A DNA stretch of 64,000 nucleotides. It comes from Dicyema japonicum. Its lineage: Eukaryota > Dicyemida > Rhombozoa > Dicyemidae. Shown one piece after another: positions 6,458 to 40,587 of the stretch (its first letter is position 1; each line of letters begins with the position of its first letter). Position numbers and translations under genes: made by a program. The stretch is taken from NCBI GenBank assembly GCA_011109175.1, contig RDEW01000026.1, forward strand, positions 575,695 through 639,694. Reading direction: 5' to 3'. Below the pieces are notes generated by a model. It did not search any database. It saw only the letters and a program-made list of their open reading frames with translations, and was not told the origin of the DNA.

Positions 6458-7300
6458 TCATAAATTCTTTAGGATAGGATAATCATCAATGATGATTGTC
6501 AGATTGCCATACTGCGTCAACAGCAAATTTCCTCTTGTATCTGCAGACTGATTTAAGAGCCAGAGAGGGTGTTTAGCATTCAAATCGCCGCATATAACGA
6601 CTTCGTTCCAAATCTCCAGTGCTGATAAGTCCGGCATACCGTAATGTTTCGGAAATGAGCCGCCCAGAAGCGGAATATACATGTTTACAAAATATAGTCT
6701 TCCTTTTGTTGTGCCAACAGATATTCCGATTGTCTCCGTGGTTTCATCACTCCCCAAAAGTTTCTTCGCTTCGAGTGTATGGTCCTCATACTTTATGTTT
6801 TTTCTGATTAATATAAGTAGTCCTCCTCCATGTTTCTTAGTGCGATCGGCACGTATTATGTTGTATCCGGGAAAGAAGGGCGTAGTATCTTTCGCTGATA
6901 GCTTCGATTTTAGGATGAGCATGATGTCAGCTTTAAGTTTAACGATCAGAGTTCTAAGTTCAATAATTTTGCCTTTTATTCCGTTCACATTCATTTTTAT
7001 AACGGAGATCCGGTCCTTTGACTTGTGTAGGTTGCGAATCCGAGAAGCTGTAGACAGACCAGTAATCCGTCGATCAGGGGTGAAATGTACCCCCGGTAGG
7101 AAGAGAGCTAATGGCTCTTTTTGGAAATGCTTTAGGAGCATTTTGAGCGCCTCCAGAGTTGTTGCATCCGGTGAGCCACATGACGCCACGCTAATAAATA
7201 TATTAATAATCTTTATCTCCCTGGGGAGTACCAACATTGCACGTAAATTCACGGGAAAACGTCTTACCGACCCGCATTCTGAGCTTCGTGTTAGATAGCA
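6458..7300 (-). mobile_element. Jockey-like LINE endonuclease fragment
   Basis: A 264-codon open stretch on the minus strand carrying most of an APE-type endonuclease. It has MNVNGIKGKIIEL (the N-x-N-G start), ILKSKLSA (the E-T-K position, here with the catalytic glutamate replaced), GYNIIRADRTKKHGGGL, and VICGDLNAKHPLW (the G-D-x-N-A-x-H motif). It is cut off before the final S-D-H motif, about 1 kb from the similar fragment at 4560-5610. The missing glutamate and the truncation mean it is inactive. Confidence 0.7.
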
Positions 7301-11829: not shown

Positions 11830-12400
11830 TTTTTTTACTTTAACTTTTTTCTCGGTGTATCCGGTGGTAATAAATAAATAAAATAATAATAAAATAAATA
11901 AATAATAATGGCTTTCCACCTCGAATGGAGAGATTGTAATTCCGTCCCTCTATCCAAGCCAACCGGTTCAAGGATGGAGGGGTATTCCAGAACTCGCTTA
12001 ACAATTCTTTTGATCGTCTTATGTCTTGGGAATCGTTCGCGCTTCTTCGGAAAGAAAGGGCATGATGTCCATAACAGTCGACGGTACCACCGCACCGGTA
12101 CTTGTAAGTCTGGCAAATTTCAGTCCCAGTCTGATGGAGATATCGGTGCAAAAAGTTTCATCGTCAAGGTGGATCCCGACGCTTCCGACCGGGAGCTGTT
12201 GATCCAATCGTCACTCCATTCGCATCTTCCTGTCACTGGACAGAAGCGTAGGTGTTGGTTTGATTGGCTCAAAATCCTTCCATATTTATCAGGCAGAAGG
12301 TTGTTGATTCTTACAACCTACTCTAGAGTGTTTCTGGAGTCTACTCTACCGCTGAGAAAATTGTAAATTCTCTCTTCTCAGACAGTTTGACTTTCAGATT
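11830..12400 (-). mobile_element. R2-like LINE fragment (C-terminal region)
   Basis: On the minus strand, overlapping frames spell the cysteine-rich C-terminal region of an R2-like LINE family widespread in invertebrates: VGSVGIHLDDETFCTDISIR, then YRCGGTVDCYGHHALSFRRS, then SILEPVGLDRG. The family normally continues with a restriction-like endonuclease (P-D-G...W-D-x-T), which is cut off here by AT-rich sequence. Several frameshifts are present. Reverse transcriptase fragments probably of the same family lie at 45420-45715 and 63500-64000. Confidence 0.65.
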
Positions 12401-12658: not shown

Positions 12659-15097
12659 ATGTGTGCCACTTTTAGATACGACTCCGACACCTCAATCAAG
12701 CTCAAACTCGACTTACAAGAGTCTAAAAACTCAATAGATTCGCAGTTAGCCAAGGTAAGGCAATTCGTCTACGCTGTGTTCGATGGAAGCAACAAGCCCT
12801 CAATCTGGACTATTTATAAGGTATTATAATACATTAGTTGAGTCTATCAACATCATCCTCGAGAGATCTGACGGAAGGTGTCTCGGTGATGTCATCAATG
12901 ACTTGTTGGACAACAAAATCAACGATTTTCACTCTGAATTGGATTCCGAACCAGAAAATGAGCGATTTTTGAGAAAAATTTGCGACTATTGGGCTTTCTA
13001 CGACGGAAAAATCGTTTATACCTATTTAACCATAGAAATTCCTTAGCCTCGTCTTCATTAACTACGACAGAGTCTCCGGTCTAAAGACCGTCTCCGAATA
13101 CGCCCAGGACCATTTCATACGTCATCTTCTTTTCCCTGAAAGGATGAAAATTGGTTTTCTGCGCTCCCTTAATGACCTGCTGCGTGAAGAACGGAACGGA
13201 GGAGTCCCGAATACAGTGACCCGAGATGCCGTACACTTGCTCACAGTACTGGGGGTTAGTTTTCTTATCAAGTAATAGTTGGAGGAGAGCTATGCCTTTG
13301 AAGCTATCTGCGAGGAAATGACGAATTACTTTCAGTCTAAGACTTGTGATTTTACGGTAAAGTAGTTTTCCTGATCGAGGACAGGTGAGATGTTCGACCA
13401 TATCGAGAAGAGGATCATGGAAGAAGAATCCCGTTTCCAAATGTTCCGTGATATAAGGCCGCGGTGGATTTTGTTGTTATTCCAGACTAGTGGCACGCGT
13501 GCACTCTCTGGTGTTTTTCCAGCGCGTTGAAGAGCTCCTTGGAGACCGTATACAATAATTTGATTTTTGTAGGACTTGCGAATGTACTCAACGCCGGAGA
13601 CTGGGAGATGCTGGGACGATTCCGTGATTTCTTTATTAATTACGGAATTCAGGAAAGATTGATCAACCAGATATGCCGTTATTTTGGAGTTTCAGTTATT
13701 TTTACTAAAGAAATGGTTTGATGACGTCGTTTCTAGCTCTCCTGAGTCCATTTTGATTACCCTTCTCGCAGGTAGAAGGATATTTTACCACAGAGACGAT
13801 AACCAAGGCCTTAACTATGATAACCCACGTGTTTGAGGACCATGGAGACATCCTCAAAAGCATCCATCTATCAGTGGAGAACTCCTTAGTTCCCATCCAC
13901 AAATCAATACCATCAATGTTGAACAACCACATCCGATGTCTCCTCACTTCTGGGATCGTCCCTGACCTTAGTTCCCGACTGGACGACTGTATCTATATAA
14001 GTACTTGTCTTCGAGGTAGCAGTTGTTTCCACGTAGGCTCCTTTGACCAATTCATGAGCTTATTCATTTACGAGACCAGCTTCAGATTGGTCTATTCTGA
14101 ATACCGATCCCTTGAAGATGAGGCATTGATGTTGGCCAAATTAAGGCAAGGTGCTTAATTGATTTATTCTAGAGATCGGTCCTTTTCGCATGGATGCGCT
14201 CGACAAGATTCTCTCGAACTACAAAGTCGCTATTGGGAAGACAAAGGACTACTACGCCCACATGGGTGGTTTTTTATTTGTTATTAATAGAGGATCCCTC
14301 TCTTGAGTTTCTGTTCCGTCCCCTGGCGATGTCCGTGAACATTTCCGCGTCGGCTCCGTGGATAAAACCGGAGATTGTACATGTGCGTATTCCGGAAAAG
14401 GTTGAGTACTAACTTAGCCTAGTTATCGCGCTTAAAGGACAGTTTTGAGCGGTTTTTTTCCGAGAAAAATGAATTTTGTGAGCTCTCATGGATAAACGCG
14501 ATTGATAGATGCACTTTAGGAGTGTTTCTTAAGGTGAACGTATCGGTAATTATAGGGCGGAGTGAGGGATGTCGAAATGACCTTATTGCAGGCTGTGGTG
14601 TTACTTCTTTTCGACGGTGAAGATCGGCTCAGTTTCGCGGAAATTCAAGAAAAAACGGAAATCCGTAATTTCGTGCTTATTTCAAGATCCTGACATATTG
14701 GAAAGGGTCCTGAGTAGCATCACATGCACGGGACTGTTACTTGAGGACGACGGGTACCTCTTTAATCCACTCTGTGAGTGTCCCCTTGTCTATATACTGC
14801 CCCCATTGGATTCGCAGGTTACTCGAGAAGTTGTGAAATCCACGGAAATGACGGTTAAGAACCGACAGGAGATTGTGGGAGGTGCCATGATGAGCGTTTT
14901 GAAGGAAATGAGGACTGCGACGATGAATGAACTGAAGGAGAGGGTTGTTGAGAGGCTTAAGTTCTCCATGGAGGTTGATGGAGATGTGATGATAGAGCAA
15001 CGATTTAAAGGAGGTGATTGATGAATTGGTAGGTAGGGGATATATGGAGAGGCACCCTGACTTAATTGATGTGTATAAGTATAAGAGTTTTTCCTGA
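12659..15097 (+). CDS. Cullin-family protein, 16 exons with ultra-short introns
   Basis: Predicted scaffold of a cullin-RING ubiquitin ligase: it would hold a substrate adaptor at its N-terminus and a RING protein plus E2 at its C-terminus. The joined exons give one frame of 701 residues (family usually 740-780), ending in TGA at 15095-15097. Landmarks in order: SIWTIYK at about 48-54; WAFYDGKI next to exon 3 KFLSLVFINYD; LREERNGG at about 160-167 (family E-R-x-R-N-G-E); HIEKRIMEEE; MLAKLRQ; LLLFDGEDRLSFAEIQEKT (first winged-helix segment); VLKEMR with the likely NEDD8-acceptor lysine near 645; and a C-terminal GYMER and VYKYKSFS, where most cullins end Y-x-Y-x-A. Alignment by eye fits CUL1, CUL3 and CUL4 about equally, so the subtype is open. 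All breaks between frames coincide with GT...AG segments of about 18-25 nt, so it reads as an intact gene. The start is the only in-frame ATG in the first exon before the conserved region. Confidence 0.9.
12821..14995 (+). other. Set of 15 ultra-short spliceosomal introns in the cullin gene
   Basis: Introns placed by restoring the cullin frame, all with GT...AG ends: 12821-12842, 13014-13035, 13255-13278, one near 13362-13379 (18 nt; a 33-nt choice at 13357-13389 also keeps frame), 13464-13485, 13548-13572, 13689-13710, 13772-13793, 14016-14036, 14151-14172, 14266-14290, 14401-14422, 14534-14555, 14665-14686, 14974-14995. Ten are exactly 22 nt, two are 25, one is 24, one is 21. Most are T-rich, and some contain a branch-site-like TACTAA a few bases before the acceptor (13689 and 14401 introns). 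The intron at 14016 is a multiple of three without a stop and would be invisible to frame-based prediction. Confidence 0.85.
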
Positions 15098-16516: not shown

Positions 16517-18547
16517 TTTTTGGTTGAGGTGGTGACGTCCCTCTATAGCACATATGTTTTTCTCACGTCTAATATCTAACTGCCCTTTTTCTGTGGGTAC
16601 CCTGAATGTAAGAGGACTCAATCCAACATACAAGAAGCTTCAGCTGTCACGTGATTTGGATCACTATAAGGTATCAGTATGCTGCCTACAGGAAACAAAA
16701 ATAACTGACGACACATGCATGCGGGTGGGAAATTATCATTTGATTACCCTTCCAACAACGTGTCGTCACTATGGACTTGGATTTGCTATTCATCACATTG
16801 TATAGTCGTATATCTCGGATGTGGTCGTTACAGACAGGATTGCGGTACTGCAAATCCGGTGGGGAAGCAAACCAAACTCTACAGTGACAATCATCAAACA
16901 TATACGCCCCGACTGGAATTAGGGGCATCTGCCAATCCAGAAGAACTAGACGAATTCTACTCCGCCTTCATAAGGGTTTACAACACTCTCAATTCTTCAT
17001 ATTTTTGCTTAATTGCCGGGGACTGGAATGCCAAAGCAGGAAAAGCCAGATCTGGAGAAACTTGTATCGGATCTCATGGAAGAAATCGGCGAAACACGCC
17101 CGGAATGGCATTAATCCACTTTTGCACTTCCTTGGATCTGTTTTTGTGCAATACGGCATTCCGTCACCCAGCGAGACACAAGACGAAAAGGACTGGAACT
17201 AGGAAGGATTTGCAAGGAAATTACATAAAAATATATAATCAAATTGACTACATACTATGCAGACGAGGTCACAAACATCTCCTCGTAGACTCCAGGTCAT
17301 ATGGAGGATTAGAGACATATAGTGATCATAAAATTGTGGTTACTCGCATTGGACTATACAAAGTCCATAACCAAATGAAAACACCTTCCAATAAAAAGCA
17401 GGAGCAATATGATATCCAATTATTACATGACAAGTCAACTCAACAGAAATATGCGTATCAACTAAATCTTGAACTTAATGATGTCGACGAAACTAAACCT
17501 GTTCATATTATTTGGGACAAAGTCACAAAGTCGATAAAAGGTACAGCATGTGATGTGTTGGGAAGTATTACAAAACCCCGTAAATTTTACAATCATGATA
17601 TTTGCGTCCTATCAGAAAACCAGAAAGCCTTGAGATTGAAGATAGAAAACTCAAGGTCTCCAGAAAAGGCCAAGGAACTTCGGCAACAACGAAACTGAAC
17701 ATTATTAAAAATCAAGCAAATTCAGAAATCCCTAACGGCTAAAGAAATAGAAAAACAAATTGAAGACATTGAAAAATATAAAGATGGAGTAAAATGTTAA
17801 AAGATATTCAATTAATTAATAAGAAAAAGAGTGCCCCATAATAATCAATGACATCCTTGGCAGAATAATTATCGATGAAAAGGACAAAGCAGCTACTATA
17901 TCTGCTTATTACTATCATATGCTCAACTGGGACAACGAAATAGGCTATAAATTTGGTGCACAAGTCAAGCATGGTTTGGACATCCCAATAAACACACAAG
18001 AAACACTGGATGCAATTAAAAAATTGAAAAATGACAGATCGGCAGGACCAGATGTAATAGTAGGAACTTATAAAGTATGCCCAGTGAAGTTGGTAACAAT
18101 CATTACCAATATACTCAACAAAATATTTGAAGAAAACACTACGTTAGACATTGGCAAGGGTTGGTTAATTCCACTGCAAAAACCGGGAAAACCCAAAGGG
18201 CCCCTTTCCAACCTAAGACCAATCATCCTACTAACTACACTGCGAAAAATTTTGTCAATTATTACTTTGGAAAGAATCAAAGACAAGGTGGAGTATTTTC
18301 TGTCACTAGGACAAAGTGGGTTCCGGTCAGGCAGATCCACTGCCGATGTCATTTGGACACACAGATGGTCAAGTCCTCTTTGCCAAAAAAATAAAAAGTG
18401 CATAGATGTTCTCGGAATAGATATGTCAAAAGCGTTTGACTCGGTTCATAGAGGCAAACTTCTTGAAGTACTCACAAGCTTCCTAACAACGGATGATGTC
18501 AAAATTATACAAAAACTACTGCAGAATACGCAACTAGCAACCAAACT
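16517..18547 (+). mobile_element. RTE-like LINE, 5' intact, cut inside the RT domain
   Basis: The best plus-strand copy of the GGTTGAGGTGGTGACGT-type family. It starts at that conserved 5' terminus. Endonuclease: VGTLNVRGLN and VSVCCLQETK (16554-16805); after a frameshift LIAGDWNAKAG, and IDYILCRRGHKHLLVDSRSY followed by SDHKIVV in the frame 16715-17698. After the linker, the RT (17919-18584 frame) has DRSAGPDVI, LIPLQKPGK, GQSGFRSGRSTADVIWTHRW and GIDMSKAFDSVH (motif A). The copy breaks at about 18547, where it meets the 3' end of a minus-strand LINE, so RT motifs B and C are lost. At least two frame breaks make it inactive. The G-D-W-N-A endonuclease and domain order point to RTE or a close relative. 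Confidence 0.75.
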
Positions 18548-18835
18548 CATTTTTTTATTTATTCCGACTTTTATAAACAGTTGATGTAGATAAGCCTGGA
18601 GCTTCCTATCTACCCTTAACTGTTTTAAATAACCTTTGTTGTCTTTTTTGCAATTCCTTCCATTTCATTAGTATTAGAATAACGAGAACCTTGGAACCAA
18701 GTATCTGCCCCATCTCATTTGCAAGAAAAACATACTTCTTTTTTCCACTTCCACAGTCTGCAAAAAGCATTTGAACGTAATGCCAAATTCTATGATAAGG
18801 GCTTGCCAAGACCATAATGCCGGTTTATTGTGCTT
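18547..18835 (-). mobile_element. RLE-type LINE, 3' terminal fragment
   Basis: Minus-strand fragment with FLANEMGQI and a downstream tail that parallel the plus-strand piece at 57690-58350 (YDLLANEMGQMF). The 3' end is seen directly: a short untranslated stretch ending in GGAATAAATAAAAAAA, which abuts the broken RTE-like copy at 18547. Since the poly(A)-like end lies exactly at the break, this fragment probably inserted into the RTE-like LINE. Confidence 0.6.
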
Positions 18836-21793: not shown

Positions 21794-24700
21794 CTTGAGC
21801 TATTAAATATAATTGTTAAATCTGCGATTCGGGATAGACTGAAAAAGGGCAAAATAGGACACAATTTGAAAAAAATGGTGTCAATTTGAGCAGATAGAGA
21901 AATATGAGATTCGGGATTGACTGAAGAAGTACCAACATTATCCGTCTAAATTTGAGAATTGGTGATAATTTGAGCTATTACTTTTATATTGATTATCTGC
22001 ATTCGGGGTTGAGTAAAGAAGTACCAACATAATCGGACACAATTTTAAATTTGTCACTTTATGCATTAGTCAAATTTGAGATTCGGGATGACTGAAGGAG
22101 TACCAACATTATCAGACACAATTTGCGAATTAGTCTTAATTAGAGCTATTATATATCTAAGTGTAGTCCATTCGCGATTCGGGATCTACAGAAGAAATAC
22201 CAACGTTATTTAATAAATGTCAGATTAGAGTTTTTAAAATATTAACTGTATACATTTGAGATTGATTATCTGCATTCGGGATTGAGTAAAGAAGTACCAA
22301 CATAGGACACAATTTGAAAAAATTGTTGTCAATTTGACAGTTAGTCAAATTTGAGATTCGGGATTGACTGAAGGAGTACCAACATTTCAGACACAATTTG
22401 CGAATTAGTCTTATTAGGAGCTATTATATATCTAATTGTAGTCCATTCGCGATTCGGGATCTACAGAAGTAGTACCAACGTTATTTAATAAATGTCATAG
22501 ATTAGAGTTTTTAAATATTAACTGTATATATTTGAGATTGATAATCTGCATTCGGGATTGAGTAAAGAAGTACCAACATAGGACACAATTTGAAAAAATG
22601 GTGTCAATTTGAGCAGTTAGTCAAATTTGAGATTCGGGATTGACTGAAGAGTACCAACATTCTCAGACACAATTTGCGAATTAGTCTTAATTAGAGCTAT
22701 TATATATCTAATTGTAGTCCATTCGCGATTCGGGATCTACAGAAGTAATACCAACGTTATTTAATAAATGTCATAGATTAGAGTTTTAAAATATTAACTG
22801 TATACATTTGAGATTGATAATCTGCATTCGGATTGAGTAAAGAAGTACCAACATAGGACACAATTTGAAAAAATGGTGTCAATTTGAGCAGTTAGTCAAA
22901 TTTGAGATTCGGGATTGACTGAAGGAGTACCAACATTCTCAGACACAATTTGCGAATTAGTCTTAATTAGAGCTATTATATATCTAATTGTAGTCCATTC
23001 GCGATTCGGGATCTACAGAAGTAATACCAACGTTATTTAATAAATGTCATAGATTAGAGTTTTTAAAATATTAACTGTATACATTTGAGATTGATAATCT
23101 GCATTCGGATTGAGTAAAGAAGTACCAACATAGGACACAATTTGAAAAAATGGTGTCAATTTGATCAGTTAGTCAAATTTGAGATTCGAGAATGACTGAA
23201 GAGTACCACATTATCCGTCTAAATTTGAGAATTGGTGATAATTTGAGCTATTACTTTTATATTGATATCTGCATTCGGGGTTGAGTAAAGAAGTACCAAC
23301 ATAATCGGACACAATTTCCAAATTTGTCTCACTTTATGCATTAGTCAAATTTGAGATTCGAGAATGACTGAAGAAGTACCAACATTATCAGACACAATTT
23401 GCGAATTAGTCTTAATTAGAGCTATTATTTATCTAATTGTAGTCCATTCGCGATTCGGGATCTACAGAAGAAGTACCAACGTTATTTAAATAAATGTCAG
23501 ATTAGAGTTTTTAAAATATTAACTGTATACATTTGAGATTGATTATCTGCATTCGGGATTGAGTAAAGAAGTACCAACATAATCGGACACAATTTCCAAA
23601 TTTGTCTCACTTTATGCAATTAGTCAAATTTGAGATTCGGGATTGACTGAAGAAGTACCAACATTATCAGACACAATTTGCGAATTAGTCTTAATTAGAG
23701 CTATTATTAATCTAACTGTAGTCCATTTCGCGATTCGGGATCTTACAGAAGTAGTACCAACGTTATTTAATAAATGTCATAATTTGAGTTCTTAATTAGA
23801 GCTATTATATATCTAATTGTAGGTCCATTCGCGATCGGATCTACAGAAGTAATACCAACGTTATTAATAAATGTCATAGATTTGAGTTCTTAATTAGAGC
23901 TATTATATATCTAATGTAGTCCATTCGCGATTCGGGATCTACAGAAGTAATACCAACGTTATTTAATAAATGTCAAAGATTTGAGTTTTTAAAATATTAA
24001 CTGTATACATTTGAGATTGATAATCTGCATTCGCGGATTGAGTAAAGAAGTACCAAAATAGGACACAATTTGAAAAAATGGTGTCAATTGATCAGTTAGT
24101 CAAATTTGAGATTCGAGAATGACTGAAGAAGTACCAACATTAGTCCGTCTAAATTTGAGAATTGGTGATAATTTGAGCTATTACTTTTATATTGATTATC
24201 TGCATTCGGGATTGAGTAAAGAAGTACCAAAATAATCGGATACAATTTCCAAATTTGTCTCACTTTATGCATTAGTCAAATTTTGAGATTCGAGATTGAC
24301 TGAAGAAGTACCAACATTATCAGACACAATTTGCGAATTAGTCTTAATTAGAGCTATTATATATCTAATTGTAGTCCATTCGCGATTCGGGATCTACAGA
24401 AGAAGTACCAACGTTATTTAATAAATGTCAGATTAGAGTTTTTAAAATATTAACTGTATACATTTGAGATTGATTATCTGCATTCGGATTGAGTAAAGAA
24501 GTACCCAACATAGGACACAATTTGAAAAAATGGTGTCAATTTGATCAGTTAGTCAAATTTGAGATTCGGGATTGACTGAAGGAGTACCAACATTCTCAGA
24601 CACAATTTGCGAATTAGTCTTAATTAGAGCTATTATATATCTAATTGTAGTCCATTCGCGATTCGGGATCTACAGAAGTAGTACCAACGTTATTTAATAA

Positions 24701-27700
24701 ATGTCAGATTAGAGTTTTTAAAAAATTAACTGTATACATTTGAGATTGATTATCTGCATTCGGATTGAGTAAAGAAGTACCAAATAATAGGAAACAATTT
24801 CCAAATTTGTTGTCATTATGCATTAGTCAAATTTGAGATTCGGGATTGACTGAAGAGTACCAACATTCTCAGACACAATTTTGCGAATTAGTCTTAATTA
24901 GAGCTATTATATATCTAATTGTAGTCCATTCGCGATTCGGGATCTACAGAAGTAGTACCAACGTTATTTAATAAATGTCAGATTAGAGTTTTTAAAATAT
25001 TAACTGTATACATTTGAGATTGATAATCTGCATTCGGGATTGAGTAAAGAAGTACCAAAATGTTCGGATACAATTTCCAAATTTGTCTCACTTTATGCAA
25101 TTAGTCAAATTTGAGATTCGGGATTGACTGAAGAAGTACCAACATTATCAGACACAATTTGCGAATTAGTCTTAATTAGAGCTATTATTTATCTAATTGT
25201 AGTCCAGTCGCGATTCGGGAAAAACAGAAGTAATACCTACGTTATTTAATAAATGTCATAGATTTGAGTTTCTTAATTAGAGCTATTATATATCTAATTG
25301 TAGTCCATTCGCGATTCGGGATCTACAGAAGTAATACCAACGTTATTTAATAAATGTCATAGATTAGAGTTCTTAATTAGAGCTATTATATATCTAATTG
25401 TAGTCCATTCGCGATTCGGGATCTACAGAAGTAATACCAACGTTATTTAATAAATGTCATTAGATTGAGTTTTTAAAATATTAACTGTATACATTTGAGA
25501 TTGATAATCTGCATTCGGATTGAGTAAAGAAGTACCAACATAGGACACAATTTGAAAAAATGGTGTCAATTTGATCAGTTAGTCAAATTTGAGATTCGAG
25601 AATGACTGAAGAGTACCAACATTATCAGACACAATTTGCGAATTAGTCTTAATTAGAGCTATTATATATCTAATTGTAGTCCATTCGCGATTCGGGATCT
25701 ACAGAAGTAGTACCAACGTTATTTGATAAATGTCAGATTAGAGTTTTTAAAATATTAACTGTATACATTTGAGATTGATTATCTGCATTCGAGCATTGAG
25801 TAAAGAAGTACCAAAATAATCGGAAACAATTTCCAAATTTGTCTCACTTTATGCAATTAGTCAAATTTGAGATTCGGGATTGACTGAAGAAGTACCAACA
25901 TTATCAGACACAATTTGCGAATTAGTCTTAATTAGAGCTATTATATATCTAATTGTAGTCCATTCGCGATTCGGGATCTACAGAAGTAGTACCAACGTTA
26001 TTTAATAAATGTCATAGATTTGAGTTCTTAATTAGAGCTATTATTTATCTAATTGTAGTCCATTCGCGATTCGGGATCTACAGAAGTAATACCAACGTTA
26101 TTTAATAAATGTCATAGATTAGAGTTTTTAAAATATTAACTGTATACATTTGAGATTGATTATCTGCATTCGGGATTGAGTAAAGAAGTACCAACATAGG
26201 ACACAATTTGAAAAAAATGGTGTCAATTTTGATCAGTTAGTCAAATTTGAGATTCGAGAATGACTGAAGAAGTACCAACATTATCAGACACAATTTGCGA
26301 ATTAGTCTTAATTAGAGCTATTATATATCTAATTGTAGTCCATTCGCGATTCGGGATCTACAGAAGTAGTACCAACGTTATTTAATAAATGTCAGATTAG
26401 AGTTTTTAAAATATTAACTGTATACATTTGAGATTGATTATCTGCATTCGGGATTGAGAAGAAGTACCAAAATAATCGGATACAATTTCCAAATTTGTCT
26501 CACTTTATGCAATTAGTCAAATTTGAGATTCGGGAATGACTGAAGAAGTACCAACATTATCAGACAACAATTTGCGAATTAGTCTTAATTAGAGCTATTA
26601 TATATCTAATTGTAGTCCATTCGCGATTCGGGATCTACAGAAGTAGTACCAACGTTATTTAATAAATGTCATAGATTTGAGTTCTTAATTAGAGCTATTA
26701 TATATCTAATTGTAGTCCATTCGCGATTCGGGATCTACAGAAGTAATACCAACGTTATTTAAATAAATGTCATAGATTTGAGTTCTTAATTAGAGCTATT
26801 ATATATCTAATTGTAGTCCATTCGCGATTCGGGATCTACAGAAGTAGTACCAACGTTATTTAATAAATGTCAGATTAGAGTTTTTAAAATATTAACTGTA
26901 TACATTTGAGATTGATTATCTGCATTCGGGATTGAGTAAAGAAGTACCAAATAATCGATACAATATCCAAATTTGTCTCACTTTATGCAATTAGTCAAAT
27001 TTGAGATTCGGGAATGACTGAAGAAGTACCAACATTTCAGACACAAATTGCGAATTAGTCTTAATTAGAGCTATTATATATCTAATTGTAGTCCATTCGC
27101 GATTCGGGATATACAGAAGTAGTACCTACGTTATTTAATAAATGTCATAGTTTAGAGTTTTTAAATATTAACTGTATACATTTGAGATTGATTATCTGCA
27201 TTCGGGATTGAGTAAAGAAGTACCAACATAGGACACAATTTGAAAAAATGGTGTCAATTTGATCAGTTAGTCAAATTTGAGATTCGGGATTGACTGAAGG
27301 AGTACCAACATTCTCAGACACAATTTGCGAATTAGTCTTAATTAGAGCTATTATTTATCTAATTGTAGTCCATTCGCGATTCGGGATCTACAGAAGTAAT
27401 ACCAACGTTATTTAATAAATGTCATAGATTAGAGTTTTTAAAATATTAACTGTATACATTTGAGATTGATTATCTGCATTCGGGATTGAGTAAAGAAGTA
27501 CCAACATAGGACACAATTTGAAAAAATGGTGTCAATTTGATCAGTTAGTCAAATTTGAGATTCGGGATTGACTGAAGAAGTACCAACATTATCCGTCTAA
27601 ATTTGAGAATTGGTGATAATTTGAGCTATTACTTTTATATTGATTATCTGCATTCGGGGTTGAGTAAAGAAGTACCAACATAATCGGACACAATTTCCAA

Positions 27701-30700
27701 ATTTGTCTCACTTTATGCATTAGTCAAATTTGAGATTCGAGAATGACTGAAGAAGTACCAACATTATCAGACACAATTTGCGAATTAGTCTTAATTAGAG
27801 CTATTATATATCTAATTGTAGTCCATTCGCGATTCGGGATCTACAGAAGTAGTACCAACGTTATTTAATAAATGTCAGATTAGAGTTTTTAAAATATTAA
27901 CTGTATACATTTGAGATGATTATCTGCATTCGGGATTGAGTAAAGAAGTACCAAAATAATCGGAAACAATTTCCAAATTTGTCTCACTTTATGCAATTAG
28001 TCAAATTTGAGATTCGGGATTGACTGAAGAAGTACCAACATTATCAGACACAATTTGCGAATTAGTCTTAATTAGAGCTATTATTAATCTAAGTGTAGTC
28101 CATTCGCGATTCGGGATCTACAGAAGTAGTACCAACGTTTTTAAATGTCATAGATTTGAGTTCTTAATTAGAGCTATTATATATCTAATTGTAGTCCATT
28201 CGCGATTCGGGATCTACAGAAGTAGTACCAACGTTATTTAATAAATGTCATAGATTTGAGTTCTTAATTAGAGCTATTATATATCTAATTGTAGTCCATT
28301 CGCGATTCGGGATCTACAGAAGTAATACCAACGTTATTTAATAAATGTCATAGATTAGAGTTTTTAAAATATTAACTGTATACATTTGAGATTGATAATC
28401 TGCATTCGGGATTGAGTAAAGAAGTACCAACATAGGACACAATTTGAAAAAATGGTGTCAATTTGAACAGTTAGTCAAATTTGAGATTCGGGATTGACTG
28501 AAGGAGTACCAACATTTCAGACACAATTTGCGAATTAGTCTTAATTAGAGCTATTATATATCTAATTGTAGTCCATTCGCGATTCGGGAACAACAGATGT
28601 AGTACCAACGTTATTTAATAAATGTCATAGATTAGATTTTTAAAATATTAACTGTATACATTTGAGATTGATAATCTGCATTCGGGATTGAGTAAAGAAG
28701 TACCAAATAATCGGATACAATTTCCAAATTTGTCTCACTTTATGCAATTAGTCAAATTTGAGATTCGGGATTGACTGAAGGAGTACCAACATTCTCAGAC
28801 ACAATTTGCGAATTAGTCTTAATTAGAGCTATTATTAATCTAAGTGTAGTCCATTCGCGATTCGGGATCTACAGAAGTAGTACCAACGTTATTTAATAAT
28901 GTCATAGATTTGAGTTCTTAATTAGAGCTATTATATATCTTTATTGTAGTCCATTCGCGATTCATGATCTACAGAAGTAATACCAACGTTATTTAATAAA
29001 TGTCATAGATTTGAGTTCTTAATTAGAGCTATTATATATCTAATTGTAGTCCATTCGCGATTCGGGATCTACAGAAGTAATACCAACGTTATTTAATAAA
29101 TGTCATAGATTAGAGTTTTTAAAATATTAACTGTATACATTTGAGATTGATAATCTGCATTCGGGATTGAGTAAAGAAGTACCAACATAGGACACAATTT
29201 GAAAAAATGGTGTCAATTTGACAGTTAGTCAAATTAGAGATTCGGGATTGACTGAAGGAGTACCAACATTTCAGATACAATTTGCGAATTAGTCTTAATT
29301 AGAGCTATTATATATCTAATTGTAGTCCATTCGCGATTCGGGATCTACAGAAGTAATACCAACGTTATTTAATAAATGTCATAGATTAGAGTTTTTAAAA
29401 TATTAACTGTATACATTTGAGATTGATAATCTGCATTCGGATTGAGTAAAGAAGTACCAACATAGGACACAATTTGAAAAAATGGTGTCAATTTGATCAG
29501 TTAGTCAAATTTGAGATTCGGGATTGACTGAAGGAGTACCAACATTCTCAGACACAATTGCGAATTAGTCTTAATTAGAGCTATTATATATCTAATTGTA
29601 GTCCATTCGCGATTCGGGATCTACAGAAGAAGTACCAACGTTATTTAATAAATGTCAGATTAGAGTTTTTAAAATATTAACTGTATACATTTGAGATTGA
29701 TTATCTGCATTCGGATTGAGTAAAGAAGTACCAAAATAATCGGATACAATTTCCAAATTTGTCTCACTTTATGCATTAGTCAAATTTGAGATTCGGATTG
29801 ACTAAAGAAGTACCACATTATCAGACACAATTGCGAATTAGTCTTAATTAAGCTATTATTAATCTAAGTGTATTCCATTCGCGATTCGGGATCTACAGAA
29901 AGTACCACGTTATTTAATAAATGCGATTAGTTTTAATTAGAGCTATTATATATCTAATTGTAGTCCATTCGCGATTCAAGATCTACAGAAGTAGTACCAA
30001 CGTTATTTAATAAATGTCATAGATTAGAGTTTTTAAAATATTAACTGTATACATTTGAGATTGATTATCTGCATTCGGGATTGAGTAAAGAAGTACCAAC
30101 ATTGGACACAATTTGAAAAAATGGCGTCAATTTGACAGTTAGTCAAATTTGAGATTCGGATTGACTGAAGAAGTACCAACATTATCAGACACAATTTGCG
30201 AATTAGTTTTAATTAGAGCTTTTATATATCTAAGTGAAGTCCATTTGCGATTCAAGATCTACAGAAGTAGTACCAACGTTATTTAATAAATGTCATAGAT
30301 TAGAGTTTTTAAAATATTAACTGTATACATTTGAGATTGATTATCTCCATTCGGATTGAGTAAAGAAGTACCAACATAGAACACAATTTGAAAAATGTGT
30401 TAATTAGAGCAGTTAGTCACATTTGAGATTCGGGATTGACTGAAGAGTACCAACATTATTAGACACAATTTGTGAATTAGTCCTAATTAGAGTTATTATA
30501 TATCTAATTGTAGTCCATTCGCGATTCGGAATCTACAGAAGTAAGTACCAACGTTATTTAATAAATGTCAGATTAGAGTTTTTAAAATATTAACTGTATT
30601 CATTTGAGATTGATTATCTGCATTCGGGATTGAGTAAAGATGTACCAACATTGGACACAATTTCCAAATTTGTCTCACTTTAATGCATTAGTCAAATTTG

Positions 30701-33700
30701 AGATTCGGGATTGACTGAAGAAGTACCAACATTATCAGACACAATTTGCGAATTAGTCTTAATTAGAGCTATTATATATCTAAGTGTAGTCCATTCGCGA
30801 TTCGGGATCTACAGAAGTAAGTACCAACGTTATTTAATAAATGTCATAGATTAGAGTTTTTAAAATATTAACTGTATACATTTGAGATTGATTATCTGCA
30901 TTCGGGATTGAGTAAAGAAGTACCAACATAGGACACAATTTGAAAAATGGTGTCAATTTGATCAGTTAGTCAAATTTGAGATTCGAGAATTGACTGAAGA
31001 AGTACCAACATTATCAGACACAATTTGCGAATTAGTCTTAATTAGAGCTATTATATATCTAATTGTAGTCCATTCGCGATTCGGGATCTACAGAAGTAGT
31101 ACCAACGTTATTTAATAAATGTCATAGATTTGAGTTTTTAAAATATTAACTGTATACATTTGAGATTGATAATCTGCATTCGGGATTGAGTAAAGAAGTA
31201 CCAACATATCGGACACAATTTCCAAATGGTGTCACTTTATGCATTAGTCAAATTTGAGATTCGGGATTGACTGAAGAAGTACCAACATTATCAGACACAA
31301 TTTGCGAATTAGTCTTAATTAGAGCTATTATATATCTAATTGTAGTCCATTCGCGATTCGGGATCTACAGAAGTAGTACAAACGTTATTTAATAAATGTG
31401 ATAGATTTGAGTTCTTAATTAGAGCTATTATATATCTAATTGTAGTCCATTCGCGATTCGGGATCTACAGAAGTAGTACCAACGTTATTTAATAAATGTG
31501 ATAGATTTGAGTTCTTAATTAGAGCTATTATATATCTAATTGTAGTCCATTCGCGATTCGGGATCTACAGAAGAATACCAACGTTATTTAATAAATGTCA
31601 TAGATATAGATTTTTAAAATATTAACTGTATACATTTGAGATTGATAATCTGCATTCGGGATTGAGTAAAGAAGTACCAACATAGGAACAATTTGAAAAA
31701 TGGTGTCAATTTGAACAGTTAGTCAAATTGAGATTCGAGAATGACTGAAGAAGTACCAACATTTCAGACACAATTTGCGAATTAGTCTTAATTAGAGCTA
31801 TTATATATCTAATTGTAGTCCATTCGCGATTCGGATCTACAGAAGTAATACCAACGTTATTTAATAAATGTCATAGATTAGAGTTTTTAAAATATTAACT
31901 GTATACATTTGAGATTGATAATCTGCATTCGGGATTGAGTAAAGAAGTACCAACATAGGACACAATTTGAAAAATGTGTCAATTTGAGCAGTTAGTCAAA
32001 TTTGAGATTCGGGATTGACTGAAGGAGTACCAACATTCTCAGACACAATTTGCGAATTAGTCTTAATTAGAGCTATTATATATCTAATTGTAGTCCATTC
32101 GCGATTCGGGATCTACAGAAGTAGTACCAACGTTATTTAATAAATGTCATAGATTAGAGTTTTTAAAATATTAACTGTATACATTTGAGATTGATTATTT
32201 GCATTCGGATTGAGTAAAGAATGACTGAAGAAGTACCAACATTATCAGACACAATTTGCGAATTAGTTTTAATTAGAGCTATTATTTATCTAATTGTAGT
32301 CCATTCGCGATTCAAGATCTACAGAAGTAGTACCAACGTTATTTAATAAATGTCATAGATTAGAGTTTTTAAAATATTAACTGTATACATTTGAGATGAT
32401 TATCTGCATTCGGGATTGAGTAAAGAAGTACCAACATAGGACACAATTTGAAAAAATCGTCATTTATCATTAGTCAAATTTGAGATTCGGATGACTGAAG
32501 AAGTACCAACATTATCAGACACAATTTGCGAATTAGTCTTAATTAGAGCTATTATATCTAATTGTAGTCCATTCGCGATTCGGGATCTACAGAAGTAGTA
32601 CCAACGTTATTTAATAAATGTCAGATTAGAGTTTTTAAAATATTAACTGTATACATTTGAGATTGATTATCTGCATTCGGGATTGAGTAAAGAAGTACCA
32701 AATAATCGGATACAATTTCCAAATTTGTCTCACTTTATGCAATTAGTCAAATTTGAGATTCGGGATTGACTGAAGGAGTACCAACATTCTCAGACACAAT
32801 TTGCGAATTAGTCTTAATTAGAGCTATTATATATCTAATTGTAGTCCATTCGCGATTCGGGAAAAACAGAAGTAGTACCAACGTTATTTAATAAATGTCA
32901 TAGATTAGATTTTTAATTTAACTATTATATATTTAATTGTAGTCCATTCGGCGATTCGGGATTACAGAAGAAGTACCAACGTTTTTAAAAATGTATAGAT
33001 TTGAAGTTCTTAATTAGAGCTATTATATATCTAATTGTAGTCCATTCGCGATTCGGGATCTACAGAAGTAATACCAACGTTATTTAATAAATGTCATAGA
33101 TTAGAGTTTTTAAAATATTAACTGTATACATTTGAGATTGATAATCTGCATTCGGGATTGAGTAAAGAAGTACCAACATAGGACACAATTTGAAAAATGG
33201 TGTCAATTTGAGCAGTTAGTCAAATTTGAGATTCGGGATTGACTGAAGAGTACCAACATTCTCAGACACAATTTGCGAATTAGTCTTAATTAGAGCTATT
33301 ATATCTAATTGTAGTCCTTTCGCGATTAGGGATCTACAGAAGTAATACCAACGTTATTTAATAAATGTCATAGATTAGAGTTTTTAAAATATTAACTGTA
33401 TACATTTGAGATTGATTATCTGCATTCGGGATTGAGTAAAGAAGTACCAACATAGGACACAATTTGAAAAAATGGTGTCAATTTGATCAGTTAGTCAAAT
33501 TTGAGATTCGGGATTGACTGAAGGAGTACCAACATTCTCAGACACAATTTGCGAATTAGTCTTAATTAGAGCTATTATTTATCTAAGTGTAGTCCTTTCG
33601 CGATTCGGGATCTACAGAAGTAAGTACCAACGTTATTTAATAAATGTCAGATTAGAGTTTTTTAAAATATTAACTGTATAAATTTGAGATTGATTAATCT

Positions 33701-36700
33701 GCATTCGGGATTGAGTAAAGAAGTACCAACATAAGGACACAATTTGAAAAAATGGTGTCAATTTGAGCAGTTAGTCAAATTTGAGATTCGGGATTGACTG
33801 AAGGAGTACCAACATTATCAGACACAATTTGCGAATTAGTCTTAATTAGAGCTATTATTTATCTAAGTGTAGTCCTTTCGCGATTCGGGATCTACAGAAG
33901 TAAGTACCAACGTTATTTAATAAATGTCATGATTAGAGTTTTTAAAATATTAACTGTATACATTTGAGATTGATATCTGCATTCGGGATTGAGTAAAGAA
34001 GTACCAACATAGGACACAATTTGAAAATGGTGTCAATTTGATCAGTTAGTCAAATTTGAGATTCGGGATTGACTGAAGGAGTACCAACATTCTCAGACAC
34101 AATTTGCGAATTAGTCTTAATTAGAGCTATTATATATCTAAGTGTAGTCCATTCGCGATTCGGGATCTACAGAAGAAGTACCAACGTTATTTAATAAATG
34201 TCAGATTAGAGTTTTTAAAATATTAACTGTATACATTTGAGATTGATTATCTGCATTCGGGATTGAGTAAAGAAGTACCAAATAATCGGAACAATTTCCA
34301 AATTTGTCTCACTTTATGCAATTAGTCAAATTTGAGATTCGAGATTGACTGAAGAAGTACCAACATTATCAGACACAATTTGCGAATTAGTCTTAATGTA
34401 GAGCTATTATTAATCTAATTGTAGTTCCATTCGCGATTCGGATCTACAGAATTAGTAGCAACATTTAATAAATGTCTAGATTTAGTCTTAATTAGAGCTA
34501 TTATATCTAATTGTAGTCCATTCGCGATTCGGGATCTACAGAAGTAGTACCAACGTTATTTAATAAATATGTCAGATTAGAGTTTTTAAAATATTAAACT
34601 GTATACATTTGAGATTGATTATCTGCATTCGGGATTGAGTAAAGAAGTACCAAATAATCGGACACAATTTCCAAATTTGTCTCATTTATGCAATTTAGTC
34701 AAATTTGAGATTCGGGATTGACTGAAGGAGTACCAACATTATCAGACACAATTTGCGAATTAGTCTTAATTAGAGCTATTATTATATCTAATTGTAGTCC
34801 ATTCGCGATTCGGGATCTACAGAAAGTACAAACGTTATTTAATAAATGTGATAGATTTGAGTTCTTAATTAGAGCTATTATATATCTAATTGTAGTCCAT
34901 TCGCGATTCGGGATCTACAGAAGTAGTACCAACGTTATTTAATAAATGTGATAGATTTGAGTTCTTAATTAGAGCTATTATATATCTAATTGTAGTCCAT
35001 TCGCGATTCGGGATCTACAGAAGTAGTACCAACGTTATTTAATAAATGTCAGATTAGAGTTTTAAATATTAACTGTATACATTTGAGATTGATATCTGCA
35101 TTCGGCATTGAGTAAAGAAGTACCAACATAGGACACAATTTAAAAATGTGTCAATTTGATCAGTTAGTCAAATTTGAGATTCGAGATTGACTGAAGAAGT
35201 ACCAACATTATCAGACACAATTTGCGAATTAGTCTTAATTAGAGCTATTATATATCTAATTGTAGTCCATTCGCGATTCGGGATCTACAGAAGAAGTACC
35301 AACGTTATTTAATAAATGTCAGATTAGAGTTTTTAAAATATTAACTGTATACATTTGAGATTGATTATCTGCATTCGGATTGAGTAAAGAAGTACCAACA
35401 TAGAACACAATTTGAAAATGGTGTCAATTTATCAGACACAATTTGCGAATTAGTCTTAATTAGAGCTATTATATATCTAATTGTAGTCCATTCGCGATTC
35501 GGGATCTACAGAAGAAGTACCAACGTTATTTAATAAATGTCAGATTAGAGTTTTTAAAATATTAACTGTATACATTTGAGATTGATTATCTGCATTCGGG
35601 GTTGAGTAAAGAAGTACCAACATAATCGGACACAATTTCCAAATTTGTCTCACTTTATGCATTAGTCAAATTTGAGATTCGAGAATGACTGAAGAAGTAC
35701 CAACATTATCAGACACAATTTGCGAATTAGTCTTAATTAGAGCTATTATATATCTAATTGTAGTCCATTCGCGATTCGGGATCTACAGAAGTACCAACGT
35801 TATTTAATAAATGTCAGATTAGAGTTTTTAAAATATTAACTGTATACATTTGAGATTGATATCTGCATTCGGGATTGAGTAAAGAAGTACCAACATAGGA
35901 CACAATTTGAAAAAATGGTGTCAATTTGATCAGTTAGTCAAATTTGAGATTCGGGATGACTGAAGGAGTACCAACATTATCAGACACAATTTGCGAATTA
36001 GTCTTAATTAGAGCTATTATTTATCTAAGTGTAGTCCATTCGCGATTCGGGATCTACAGAAGAAGTACCAACGTTATTTAATAAATGTCAGATTAGAGTT
36101 TTTAAAATATTAACTGTATACATTTGAGATTGATTATCTGCATTCGGATTGAGTAAAGAAGTACCAAATAATCGGAACAATTTCCAAATTTGTCTCACTT
36201 TATGCAATTAGTCAAATTTGAGATTCGGGATTGACTGAAGAGTACCAACATTATCAGACACAATTTGCGAATTAGTCTTAATTAGAGCTATTATTTATCT
36301 AATTGTAGTCCATTCGCGATTCGGGATCTACAGAAGTAATACCAACGTTATTTAATAAATGTCATAGATTTGAGTTCTTAATTAGAGCTATTATATATCT
36401 AATTGTAGTCCATTCGCGATTCGGGATCTACAGAAGTAATACCAACGTTATTTAATAAATGTCATAGATTTGAGTTCTTAATTAGAGCTATTATATATCT
36501 AATTGTAGTCCATTCGCGATTCGGGATCTACAGAAGTAAGTACCAACGTTATTTAATAAATGTCATAGATAGAGTTTTTAAAATATTAACTGTATACATT
36601 TGAGATTGATTATCTGCATTCGGGATTGAGTAAAGAAGTACCAACATAGGACACAATTTGAAAAAATGGTGTCAATTTGACAGTTAGTCAAATTTGAGAT

Positions 36701-39300
36701 TCGGGATTGACTGAAGAGTACCAACATTATCAGACACAATTTGCGAATTAGTCTTAATTAGAGCTATTATATATCTAAGTGTAGTCCATTCGCGATTCGG
36801 GATCTACAGAAGAAATACCAACGTTATTTAATAAATGTCATAGATTAGAGTTTTTAAATATTAACTGTATACATTTGAGATTGATAATCTGCATTCGGGA
36901 TTGAGTAAAGAAGTACCAACATAGGACACAATTTGAAAAATGGTGTCAATTTGAGCAGTTAGTCAAATTTGAGATTCGGGATTGACTGAAGGAGTACCAA
37001 CATTCTCAGACACATTTTGCGAATTAGTCTTTATTAGAGCTATTATATATCTAATTGTAGTCCATTCGCGATTCGGGATCTACAGAAGTAGTACCAACGT
37101 TATTTAATAAATGTCATAGATTAGAGTTTTTAAAATATTAACTGTATACGTTTGAGATTGATTATCTGCATTCGGGATTGAGTAAAGAAGTACCAACATA
37201 ATCGGAACAATTTCCAAATTTGTCTCACTTTATGCAATTAGTCAAATTTGAGATTCGGGATTGACTGAAGAAGTACCAACATTCTTAGACACAATTTGCG
37301 AATTAGTCTTAATTAGAGCTATTATTATCTAAGTTGTAGTCCATTCGCGATTCGGGATCTATAGAAGAAGTACCAACGTTATTTAATAAATGTCAGATTA
37401 GAGTTTTTAAAATATTAACTGTATACATTTGAGATTGATTATCTGCATTCGGGATTGAGTAAAGAAGTACCAAAATAATCGGAACAATTTCCAAATTTGT
37501 CTCACTTTATGCAATTAGTCAAATTTGAGATTCGGGATTGACTGAAGAAGTACCAACATTCATGACACAATTTGCGAATTAGTCTTAATTAGAGCTATTA
37601 TATCTAATGTAGTCCATTCGCGATTCGGGATCTACAGAAGAAGTACCAACGTTATTTAATAAATGTCAGATTATAGTTTTTAAAATATTAACTGTATACA
37701 TTTGAGATTGATTATCTGCATTCGGGATTGAGTAAAGAAGTACCAACATAATCGGACACAATTTCCAAATTTGTCTCACTTTATGCAATTAGTCAAATTT
37801 GAGATTCGGGATTGACTGAAGGAGTACCAACATTATCAGACACAATTTGCGAATTAGTCTTAATTAGAGCTATTATTTATCTAAGTGTAGTCCATTCGCG
37901 ATTCGGGATCTACAGAAGAAGTACCAACGTTATTTAATAAATGTCAGATTATAGTTTTTAAAATATTAACTGTATACATTTGAGATTGATTATCTGCATT
38001 CGGGATTGAGTAAAGAAGTACCAACATAATCGAGAAACAATTTCCAAATTTGTCTCACTTTATGCAATTAGTCAAATTTGAGATTCGGGATTGACTGAAG
38101 AAGTACCAACATTATCAGACACAATTTGCGAATTAGTCTTTATTTGAGCTATTATATATCTAATGTAGTCCATTCGCGATTCGGGATCTACAGAAGAAAT
38201 ACCAACGTTATTTAATAAATGTCAGATTAGAGTTTTTAAAATATTAACTGTATACGTTTGAGATTGATTATCTGCATTCGGGATTGAGTAAAGAAGTACC
38301 AACTTAATCAGACACAATTTCCAAATTTGTCTCACTTTATGCAATTAGTCAAATTTGAGATTCGGGATTGACTGAATAAGTACCAACATTATCAGACACA
38401 ATTTGCGAATTAGTCTTTATTTGAGCTATTATATATCTAATTGTAGTCCATTCGCGATTCGGGATCTACAGAAGTAAGTACCAACGTTATTTAATAAATG
38501 TCAGATTAGAGTTTTTAAAATATTAACTGTATACATTTGAGATTGATTATCTGCATTCGGGATTGAGTAAAGAAGTACCAAAATAATCGGAACAATTTCC
38601 AAATTTGTCTCACTTTATGCAATTAGTCAAATTTGAGATTCGGGATTGACTGAAGAAGTACCAACATTATCAGACACAATTTGCGAATTAGTCTTAATTA
38701 GAGCTATTATATATCTAATTGTAGTCCATTCGCGATTCGGGATCTACAGAAGTACCAACGTTATTTAATAAATGTCAGATTAGAGTTTTTAAAATATTAA
38801 CTGTATACATTTGAGATTGATTATCTGCATTCGGGATTGAGTAAAGAAGTACCAAAATAATCGGAACAATTTCCAAATTTGTCTCACTTTATGCAATTAG
38901 TCAAATTTGAGATTCGGGATTGACTTAAGGAGTACCAACATTATCAGACACAATTTGCGAATTAGTCTTAATTAGAGCTATTATTTATCTAATTGTAGTC
39001 CATTCGCGATTCGGGATCTACAGAAGAAATACCAACGTTATTTAATAAATGTCAGATTAGAGTTTTTAAAATATTAACTGTATACATTTGAGATTGATTA
39101 TCTGCATTCGGGATTGAGTAAAGAAGTACCAAAATAATCGGAAACAATTTCCAAATTTGTCTCACTTTATGCAATTAGTCAAATTTGAGATTCGGGATTG
39201 ACTGAAGAAGTACCAACATTATCAGACACAATTTGCGAATTAGTCTTAATTAGAGCTATTATTTATCTAATTGTAGTCCATTCGCGATTCGGGATCTACA
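21794..39300. repeat. Satellite array 1: roughly 277-bp higher-order repeat of three roughly 92-bp subunits
   Basis: About 17.5 kb of uninterrupted tandem repeats. Spacing of the landmark ATCTGCATTCGG over seven successive units near 37441-39100 is 273, 278, 278, 279, 274 and 277 bp. Each unit holds three related subunits of about 84-97 bp that share a core of ATTCGGGAT, then AAGTACCAAC, then often ACACAATTT. They can be told apart by GGGATCTACAGAAG, GGGATTGAGTAAAG and GGGATTGACTGAAG. That gives roughly 60 units. Many units carry one or two extra copies of the CTACAGAAG-type subunit. Small indels, mostly in short homopolymers, are common between units. No transposon or gene interrupts the array; the occasional open frames inside it are by-products of the repeat. 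Left-edge units (21800-22250) are the most divergent. Confidence 0.95.
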
Positions 39301-40587
39301 GATCATTACACTATCTAAGAAAGGTATTCTTATCTATTTGCGATTTGGCATAGATAATGTATTCTATCCAATTTTTTGATGCCATTTGAGTATTTGAACA
39401 TTTCATGGAAGTACAGCATCATTCTACATTCTAAAAAATTGGTTTTAGTTAATCCAGTTTCTCCAAATATAACTGGATGCCATTTGAGATTCTTGATCAC
39501 TTCATTAATTAATTAGTTATTCAAAAAAACTTGTGAATGCAATATATGTTCTTTCCATATAAATCTAGTTAATTTTAGATTCAATATAAATACACTATGA
39601 AAGTTATTTAAAACTTCTTGGGAATTGTTATGTAATCTAAGTTTAATCCATAAAAATGTAGTCGATTAGAGAATCAAGATCATTACATGATCTATAAAGT
39701 TATTCTACAGTACATGATATGCACTATATTGTATCCATATTATTGTAATGAATTAGATAATCATGATCATTACACTATCTACGAAAGGTATTTTATCCTA
39801 TTTGCCATTGGCATAGATAATGTATTCTATCCAATTTTTTTATTTCATTTGAGTATTTGAACATTTCATGGTGTACAGACATTCTACATTCTAGAAAATT
39901 GGTTTTGGTTTTACATATATTACTGGGATGCGATTTGAGATTCGTGATCACTTTATTAAGTAATAAGTTATTCAAAAAAACTCGTGAAATGTTATGCACT
40001 ATATGTTCTTTCAATACAAATAAGTCAATTAGAGATTCAAGATAATTACACTCTCTAAGAAAGATATTTAAAACTTCTTGTTAATTGTAATGCAATCTAG
40101 GTTCTGTCCATATAAATGTACTCGATTAGAGATTCATTCAAACTTTTGTGAATTGTTATGCAATCTAAGTTTAATCCATAAAAATGTAGTCGATTAGAGA
40201 ATCAAGAACATTACATGATCAATAAAGTTATTCTACAGTACTTGATATGCACTATAGTGTATCCATATTATTGTAATGAATTAGATAATCATGATCATTA
40301 TACTATCCACGAAAGGTATTCTAAACTATTTGCGATTTGGCATAGATAATGTATTCTATCCAATTTTTTGATGCCATTTGAGTATTTGAACATTTCATGG
40401 TGTACAGACATTCTACATTCTAGAAAATGGGTTTTGGTTTTACATATATTACTGGATGCCATTTGAGATTCTTGATCATTTCATTAAGTAATAAGTTATT
40501 CAAAAATACTCGTGAAATGCACTATATGTTCTTTCAATACAAATGAAGTCAATTAGAGATTCAAGATAATTACACAATCTAAGAAAC
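39301..40587. repeat. Satellite array 2, part a: roughly 460-530-bp unit
   Basis: A second tandem repeat begins directly where satellite 1 stops. Units start with GATCATTACACTATCTA-type sequence near 39301, 39764 and 40293, giving spacings of about 463 and 529 bp. The first unit is built of subunits of about 184, 90, 94 and 88 bp, marked by repeats of GATTC...GATCATTACA and AAGTTATTC. The units are much more divergent from each other than those of satellite 1. A MULE interrupts the array at 40588. Confidence 0.8.

Follow-up and report, generated by a model that had tools for sequence, protein, structure and literature searches.

Positions 12,659 to 15,097 of a stretch of Dicyema japonicum DNA fall into many short reading frames, and the question raised by this locus is whether it holds a complete gene interrupted by unusually small introns and, if so, what keeps those introns so uniform. 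The window, meaning the whole stretch that was analysed, comprises 64,000 nucleotides (assembly GCA_011109175.1, contig RDEW01000026.1, positions 575,695 to 639,694, forward strand). The assembly as a whole contains 64,672,829 bases in 191 contigs, with a GC content of 37% in the 264 kb sampled, and carries animal-type genes read with the standard code, including CAD, an F-BAR/SH3 protein and a myosin tail; for the dihydroorotase domain of CAD, the alignment covers 344 of the 348 residues of the reference. Animal genes, a size of about 65 Mb, 37% GC and introns near 25 nt are together the features of a dicyemid genome. The published account of the D. japonicum genome gives 65–67.5 Mb, 36.7% GC and 49% repeats, and describes both the genome and the gene set as reduced (PMC6736024).

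Ten open frames of the window were scanned with Pfam. No host-like gene other than the cullin was recognised in the window, and a 152-residue open frame located 5' of it (11908–12363) has no Pfam match. Positions 21988–39302, about 17 kb, are taken up by a satellite-like array whose units are near 100 and 276 nt. Transposon pieces are found at 6461–7252, 16715–17695, 17919–18581, 41013–41630 and 54744–55487; reverse transcriptase, MULE transposase and Helitron domains score above the Pfam cut-offs, and two endonuclease-like frames fall slightly below them.

The gene structure was predicted by a semi-Markov gene finder. Its input was the window together with 20 further pieces of the assembly, each 10 kb long, which makes 264,000 bases in all, including 25,006 N. 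It worked without a protein profile, although the codon counts from which it started came from open stretches of the window cullin itself that had been picked by hand. The initial model, obtained without protein homology, begins with the ATG at 12659, ends with a TGA whose last base is 15097 and contains 15 GT–AG introns of 22, 22, 24, 18, 22, 25, 22, 22, 21, 22, 22, 22, 22, 22 and 25 nt, in that order, leaving 701 residues. The initial annotation, made from the sequence alone, had likewise proposed 15 GT–AG introns with ten of exactly 22 nt, and this count of 10 in 15 was reproduced. The last intron was subsequently re-placed (Table 1), because the move raises the score of the C-terminal neddylation domain from 21.9 to 35.1 bits (Pfam cut-off 36.9) and because homology alone picks the same site; therefore, 11 of the 15 introns are 22 nt long in the corrected model, and the protein is a single open frame of 702 residues.

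The spliced product matches Pfam Cullin at 1.8e-50 (172.9 bits against a cut-off of 33.2) over residues 37–588, which is most of the protein length, so that the earlier reading of a complete cullin was right, coordinates included. CUL4A/B are its best relatives in the PDB, as found with a hand-made early draft of the cullin as the query. The protein shares with the cullin family, in which CUL4 is the closest PDB member, the Cullin domain, an aligned lysine and a putative C-terminal neddylation domain, whereas its identity to pieces of CUL4B ranges from 25% (59/234 in the N-terminal half and 46/187) to 33% (26/78), and its neddylation domain stays slightly below the Pfam threshold. Conserved landmarks had been claimed as far as the neddylation lysine, and an AAG codon that aligns with the IVRIMK lysine of CUL4B agrees with this; we take this lysine to be the residue modified by neddylation.

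Table 1. Features of the cullin gene in the window, and the U12 snRNA found elsewhere in the genome.
Feature	Position	Strand	Basis and remarks
Cullin gene, 16 exons, 701–702 codons	12659..15097	+	Gene finder; Pfam Cullin; CUL4-like; single open frame of 702 residues
Intron 1, 22 nt	12821..12842	+	Gene finder; recovered also with GT–AG only and flat length
Intron 2, 22 nt	13014..13035	+	Gene finder and homology
Intron 3, 24 nt	13255..13278	+	Gene finder; homology alone favoured 13255–13287
Intron 4, read as 18 nt	13362..13379	+	Gene finder; 18, 33, 39, 45, 51 or 54 nt keep the frame
Intron 5, 22 nt	13464..13485	+	Gene finder; homology alone gives 13448–13490
Intron 6, 25 nt	13548..13572	+	Gene finder and homology
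Intron 7, 22 nt	13689..13710	+	Gene finder; recovered also with GT–AG only and flat length
Intron 8, 22 nt	13772..13793	+	Gene finder; recovered also with GT–AG only and flat length
Intron 9, 21 nt, optional (stop-free, can be read through)	14016..14036	+	Gene finder
Intron 10, 22 nt	14151..14172	+	Gene finder and homology
Intron 11, 22 nt	14269..14290	+	Gene finder; homology gives 14266–14290, 25 nt possible
Intron 12, 22 nt	14401..14422	+	Gene finder and homology
Intron 13, 22 nt	14534..14555	+	Gene finder and homology
Intron 14, 22 nt	14665..14686	+	Gene finder and homology
Lysine codon AAG, aligned to the cullin neddylation lysine	14902–14904	+	Counterpart in CUL4B is the lysine of IVRIMK
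Intron 15, 22 nt (corrected from 14986–15010)	14974..14995	+	Homology, neddylation-domain score and gene finder
U12 snRNA, complete match, 85.4 bits	L044:1501–1629 (G000:C68:163471–163599)		

The individual introns are fixed by the data to different degrees. At 18 nt, intron 4 would fall below every accepted intron in other genes, and a length model taken from those genes refuses it and splits the cullin gene at that point. Removal of the optional intron 9 closes a gap of seven residues relative to CUL4, as judged by eye. Spliced alignment of CUL4B fragments in the window gave 12 introns of 100, 22, 33, 39, 43, 25, 22, 25, 22, 22, 22 and 22 nt. The first six of these, from the N-terminal half, include only two trusted lengths, 22 and 25 nt; N-terminal introns called by homology alone were otherwise rejected as misplaced, because the cullin is too divergent.

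The intron lengths of the 15-intron model were drawn from a distribution that the gene finder learnt from its own predictions, and the count of 22-nt introns in the first model is therefore partly circular. When no length information was supplied and GT–AG was the sole splice signal, two runs still gave 22 nt in 6 of 14 and 6 of 13 cullin introns. Splice-site weights taken from other genes, combined with a flat length, produced 17 introns, eight of them of 22 nt, in a model that extended into an upstream frame. Over the 264 kb, a flat length prior placed 72 of 395 predicted GT–AG introns within 22–26 nt, compared with 21–42 in the same bin for 11 control dinucleotide pairs, among which TG–GA was the highest (42/447); the codon table used in this control was derived from a GT–AG run, and the twelve runs had similar total scores (2554–2732). 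With lengths learnt, which is a self-feeding step, 22–25 nt accounted for 213 of 427 predicted introns in the 264 kb. Without the learnt distribution the finder was noisy, also in CCT genes. A plain count by length of GT–AG segments that join frames in the window was discarded, showing no distinct peak because the noise of non-coding DNA masks it.

For intron sizes in other genes, the DNA was matched to solved proteins by spliced alignment, allowing only GT–AG boundaries and a flat range of 14–120 nt and applying no splice-site weights. The genes aligned outside the window were CAD (CPS and DHO parts), ACAT2, CUL1, CCT-alpha, CCT-epsilon and CCT-beta; the 12 window introns from CUL4B fragments were excluded because of their low identity. 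In these six genes 57 introns of 20–25 nt were called. The only 20-nt call, in CCT-epsilon, was rejected as false, since VEDYNKLRQYE is encoded there in another frame and a 2-nt GT indel breaks the frame; this indel (L045:845–905) lies within a TGTGTG run and is either an assembly error or a polymorphism. The other 56 introns are all 21–25 nt long (mean 23.25, SD 1.12), with 2 of 21 nt, 14 of 22, 17 of 23, 14 of 24 and 9 of 25. The narrow intron size is not peculiar to the window cullin.

When introns of up to 500 nt were allowed in these alignments, two more appeared (255 and 309 nt), both at alignment ends and each gaining one or two residues. Genes outside the training set (four CCT, U2AF65-like, SF1, RED, SMU1 and CstF64-like) had, with learnt lengths, introns of mostly 21–26 nt, and outliers of 16, 51, 68, 86 and 88 nt were taken as mis-calls. 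Lengths did not differ significantly from gene to gene, either with the seven homology-fixed cullin introns (p = 0.107) or without the cullin (p = 0.196). In-frame stops occur in 14 of the 16 introns of 21 or 24 nt, which is about what their composition would give by our own estimate.

A positioned adenine also recurs among the 56 introns. An A at intron position +16 is present in 36 of them against 15.3 expected (z 6.4, a value reached in 0 of 20,000 shuffles) and absent from 20, and an A at –7 is present in 32 (z 5.2). A T-N-A-Y model anchored at the 5' end places the A at 16 (0.58), 17 (0.21), 18 (0.13) or 15 (0.05), and the same model anchored at the 3' end places it at –7 (0.41), –8 (0.25), –9 (0.23) or –10 (0.07); the two anchorings fit about equally well (log-likelihood 48.4 vs 47.3). 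In 25-nt introns the A tends to lie at +18. Few AGs follow this A: the last 9 nt of the introns hold 7 interior AGs, where 16.0 are expected (p 0.003). The exon end preceding GT reads AAG (A 0.50, A 0.57, G 0.64), the intron is weak at +4 to +6, and G never occurs at –3.

The signal recurs, in weaker form, in a further 100 introns, taken from 10 other stretches with genes and predicted without a splice-site model and with a 19–28 nt preference (six introns outside this range were dropped): an A at +16 was found in 42 against 26.1 expected and at +17 in 39 against 23.8 (z 3.8 and 3.7). In the window cullin, an A occupies +16 in 12 of 15 introns, some of whose boundaries had been placed using acceptor weights biased towards A at –7, and among the seven homology-fixed cullin introns five have A at –7. 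An EM motif search of width 6 yielded a motif above shuffles (log-likelihood 27.8 vs 11.2–18.5 in 12 shuffled sets, which had fewer restarts) but in mixed registers, and it was set aside in favour of the clearer T-N-A-Y model with a learnt position. This motif has the appearance of a U2-type branch site, the branching chemistry itself being a prediction. The constrained feature looks to be the placing of the branch site, with the A about 16–18 nt from the 5' end and 7–10 nt from the 3' end, rather than the total length.

Several parts of a splicing machinery were found in the genome. U1 snRNA starts with ACUUACCU in three of four aligned copies, the remaining copy having ACUUACUU, and U2 GUAGUA and U6 ACAGAGA are present in the aligned copies. 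Scoring covered the best candidates among the matches listed, and the best U1 copy reached 69.0 bits, slightly below the Rfam cut-off of 69.5. All 11 U1 matches listed fall below that cut-off, and three of the four aligned copies (L036, L037 and L039) lack a large part of the 3' stem that the Rfam model has. Scattered snRNA genes or relics occur in the genome, with 25 U2, 11 U1 and 10 U6 among the matches listed (E up to 0.001). Genes for SF1, RED and SMU1 (E 1.8e-170) were found, and a U2AF65-like gene was recovered in fragments, none scoring above 82.6 bits where the cut-off for the whole protein is 310.3. SMU1 and RED are described as important for short introns in human cells, and SPF45/RBM17 is named alongside them (cited in PMC12862383). 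To judge from the recognition elements of U1, U2 and U6 and from the other parts examined, this looks like an ordinary spliceosome. A complete U12 snRNA is present as well (Table 1), and thus the minor spliceosome may have been retained alongside the minimal introns. A pattern search for U12-type introns gave 6 matches vs 4 with the reversed pattern, and the two that were inspected were unlike introns in genes.

The segments are, in our judgement, almost certainly real introns. GT–AG removal that restores the frame, intact U1, U2 and U6 elements and a statistical branch-site motif are features of U2-type introns, and it is quite probable that these are ordinary U2-type spliceosomal introns of the dicyemid type, about 21–25 nt long with a positioned branch site. 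The positioned A at 16 (less often 17–18), 7–10 nt before the intron end, would be the branch point. The size floor would then be the sum of the shortest distances that the spliceosome accepts, about 15 nt from the 5' splice site to the branch and about 7 nt from the branch to AG, and selection or deletion bias may have driven nearly all introns to this floor. Recognition of the 5' splice site would be aided by the exon end AAG before GT, because positions +4 to +6 are weak. Additionally, SMU1 and RED may assist activation at so short a distance between 5' site and branch, as they do in human short introns. That such a two-part spacing limit causes the narrow size is a proposal which could equally be right or wrong; we are evenly divided, too, on its wider form, according to which nearly all introns have one geometry, with the branch A at 16–18 and AG 6–8 nt beyond it, and are short as a consequence of the spacing limit.

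Other explanations of the same segments deserve consideration. The presence of transposon pieces and a 17-kb satellite in the window, the 2-nt indel in CCT-epsilon and the several lengths that fit cullin intron 4 could suggest that the segments are assembly insertions or that the gene is a decaying pseudogene. This is very unlikely, as like segments interrupt CCT, CAD, thiolase and CUL1 inside well-aligned protein, and a full-length cullin results once the segments are removed. Still less credible is another removal system, such as the ciliate-type elimination of internal DNA segments: in size the segments do resemble the shortest elements and introns of ciliates, but the boundaries are GT–AG and restore frames, the genome has U1, U2, U6 and U12 snRNAs together with SF1, SMU1 and RED, and its genes are of animal type (F-BAR/SH3 protein, CAD, myosin tail).

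The initial annotation had suggested a spliceosome that measures or tolerates only a fixed intron size, close to the minimum able to hold donor, branch site and acceptor. A narrow size near that minimum stands, whereas a single length of 22 nt does not, the introns of other genes being 21–25 nt long in 56 of 56 cases. A spliceosome of this lineage that directly measures a total length of about 22 nt would account for the 11 of 15 window introns at 22 nt and for the 5-nt range of the others. It is nevertheless rather improbable, considering that 22, 23, 24 and 25 nt are all frequent, that the snRNA recognition elements are canonical and that a branch-like A has a preferred place from both ends; since the A is placed relative to both ends, the size range is explained without a separate length sensor. 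The main rival to the spacing limit is that a spliceosomal limit plays no part in the narrow size, and that deletion bias or selection for smallness trimmed the introns; the branch motif would then be no more than the weak motif common in metazoans, fitted into a small space. The reduced genome and gene set of D. japonicum, as described in its genome paper (PMC6736024), and the presence of every machinery part looked for are in line with such trimming. On the other hand, if trimming alone were at work, some longer introns would be expected as a tail, and 0 of 56 exceed 25 nt; furthermore, about half of the D. japonicum genome is given as repeats in the same source (PMC6736024), so the genome is not compact outside genes. 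We consider trimming without a hard limit a possibility to be taken seriously, although one with somewhat less than an even chance.

Uniform, very short introns have been reported in dicyemids from 2007 onward (PMC2222250, PMC2483917, PMC6543705, PMC6736024), and therefore the basic finding was already known; the cullin introns are a known dicyemid trait in one more gene. Published values are 26.2 ± 1.9 nt (n = 16) and 24.9 ± 2.5 nt (n = 41), with the median elsewhere given as 27 nt (PMC2222250, PMC2483917, PMC6543705), a mean intron of 38.2 nt is stated in the D. japonicum paper (PMC6736024), and a survey of 40 D. japonicum genes by Ogino et al. (2010, Gene) is cited in PMC6543705. In the accounts of Dicyema acuticephalum, Dicyema sp. 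and D. japonicum, the introns are tiny and uniform, in intron-rich genes with weak 5' splice sites, as they are here, whereas the present introns (23.25 ± 1.12 nt, n = 56) are slightly shorter than the published 24.9–27 nt. A further difference is the positioned branch-like motif: the survey of 41 D. acuticephalum introns, which to judge by its table scored hexamers, gives no branch-point signature (PMC2483917). Beyond that survey, the literature covered, which took in few subscription papers, yielded no dicyemid branch-site signature or spliceosome inventory.

Comparable introns are described in distant lineages. The 15-nt introns of Stentor coeruleus, as reported in PMC9505925, are likewise accompanied by canonical snRNA elements, and the loop to their putative branch A is short; they differ in being shorter, with a loop of 10 nt against about 16 here, and in that minor-spliceosome RNAs were not found by that report, in contrast to the U12 found here. 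Introns of Paramecium (20–35 nt) and of the Bigelowiella nucleomorph (18–21 nt), as quoted in PMC2222250, are also of narrow, minimal size, yet they belong to protist and endosymbiont genomes, whereas the present case is an animal with many repeats.

These results carry a caution for annotation, as gene finders with a longer minimum intron would label such genes as pseudogenes. The positioned motif also turns the uniform dicyemid introns, described as having no visible branch site, into a testable geometry, with a location for the branch point and spacings that should fail. If the proposed spacing limit is true, dicyemid introns would constitute a natural minimal substrate of a metazoan spliceosome, in which a loop of about 16 nt between the 5' splice site and the branch is used genome-wide.
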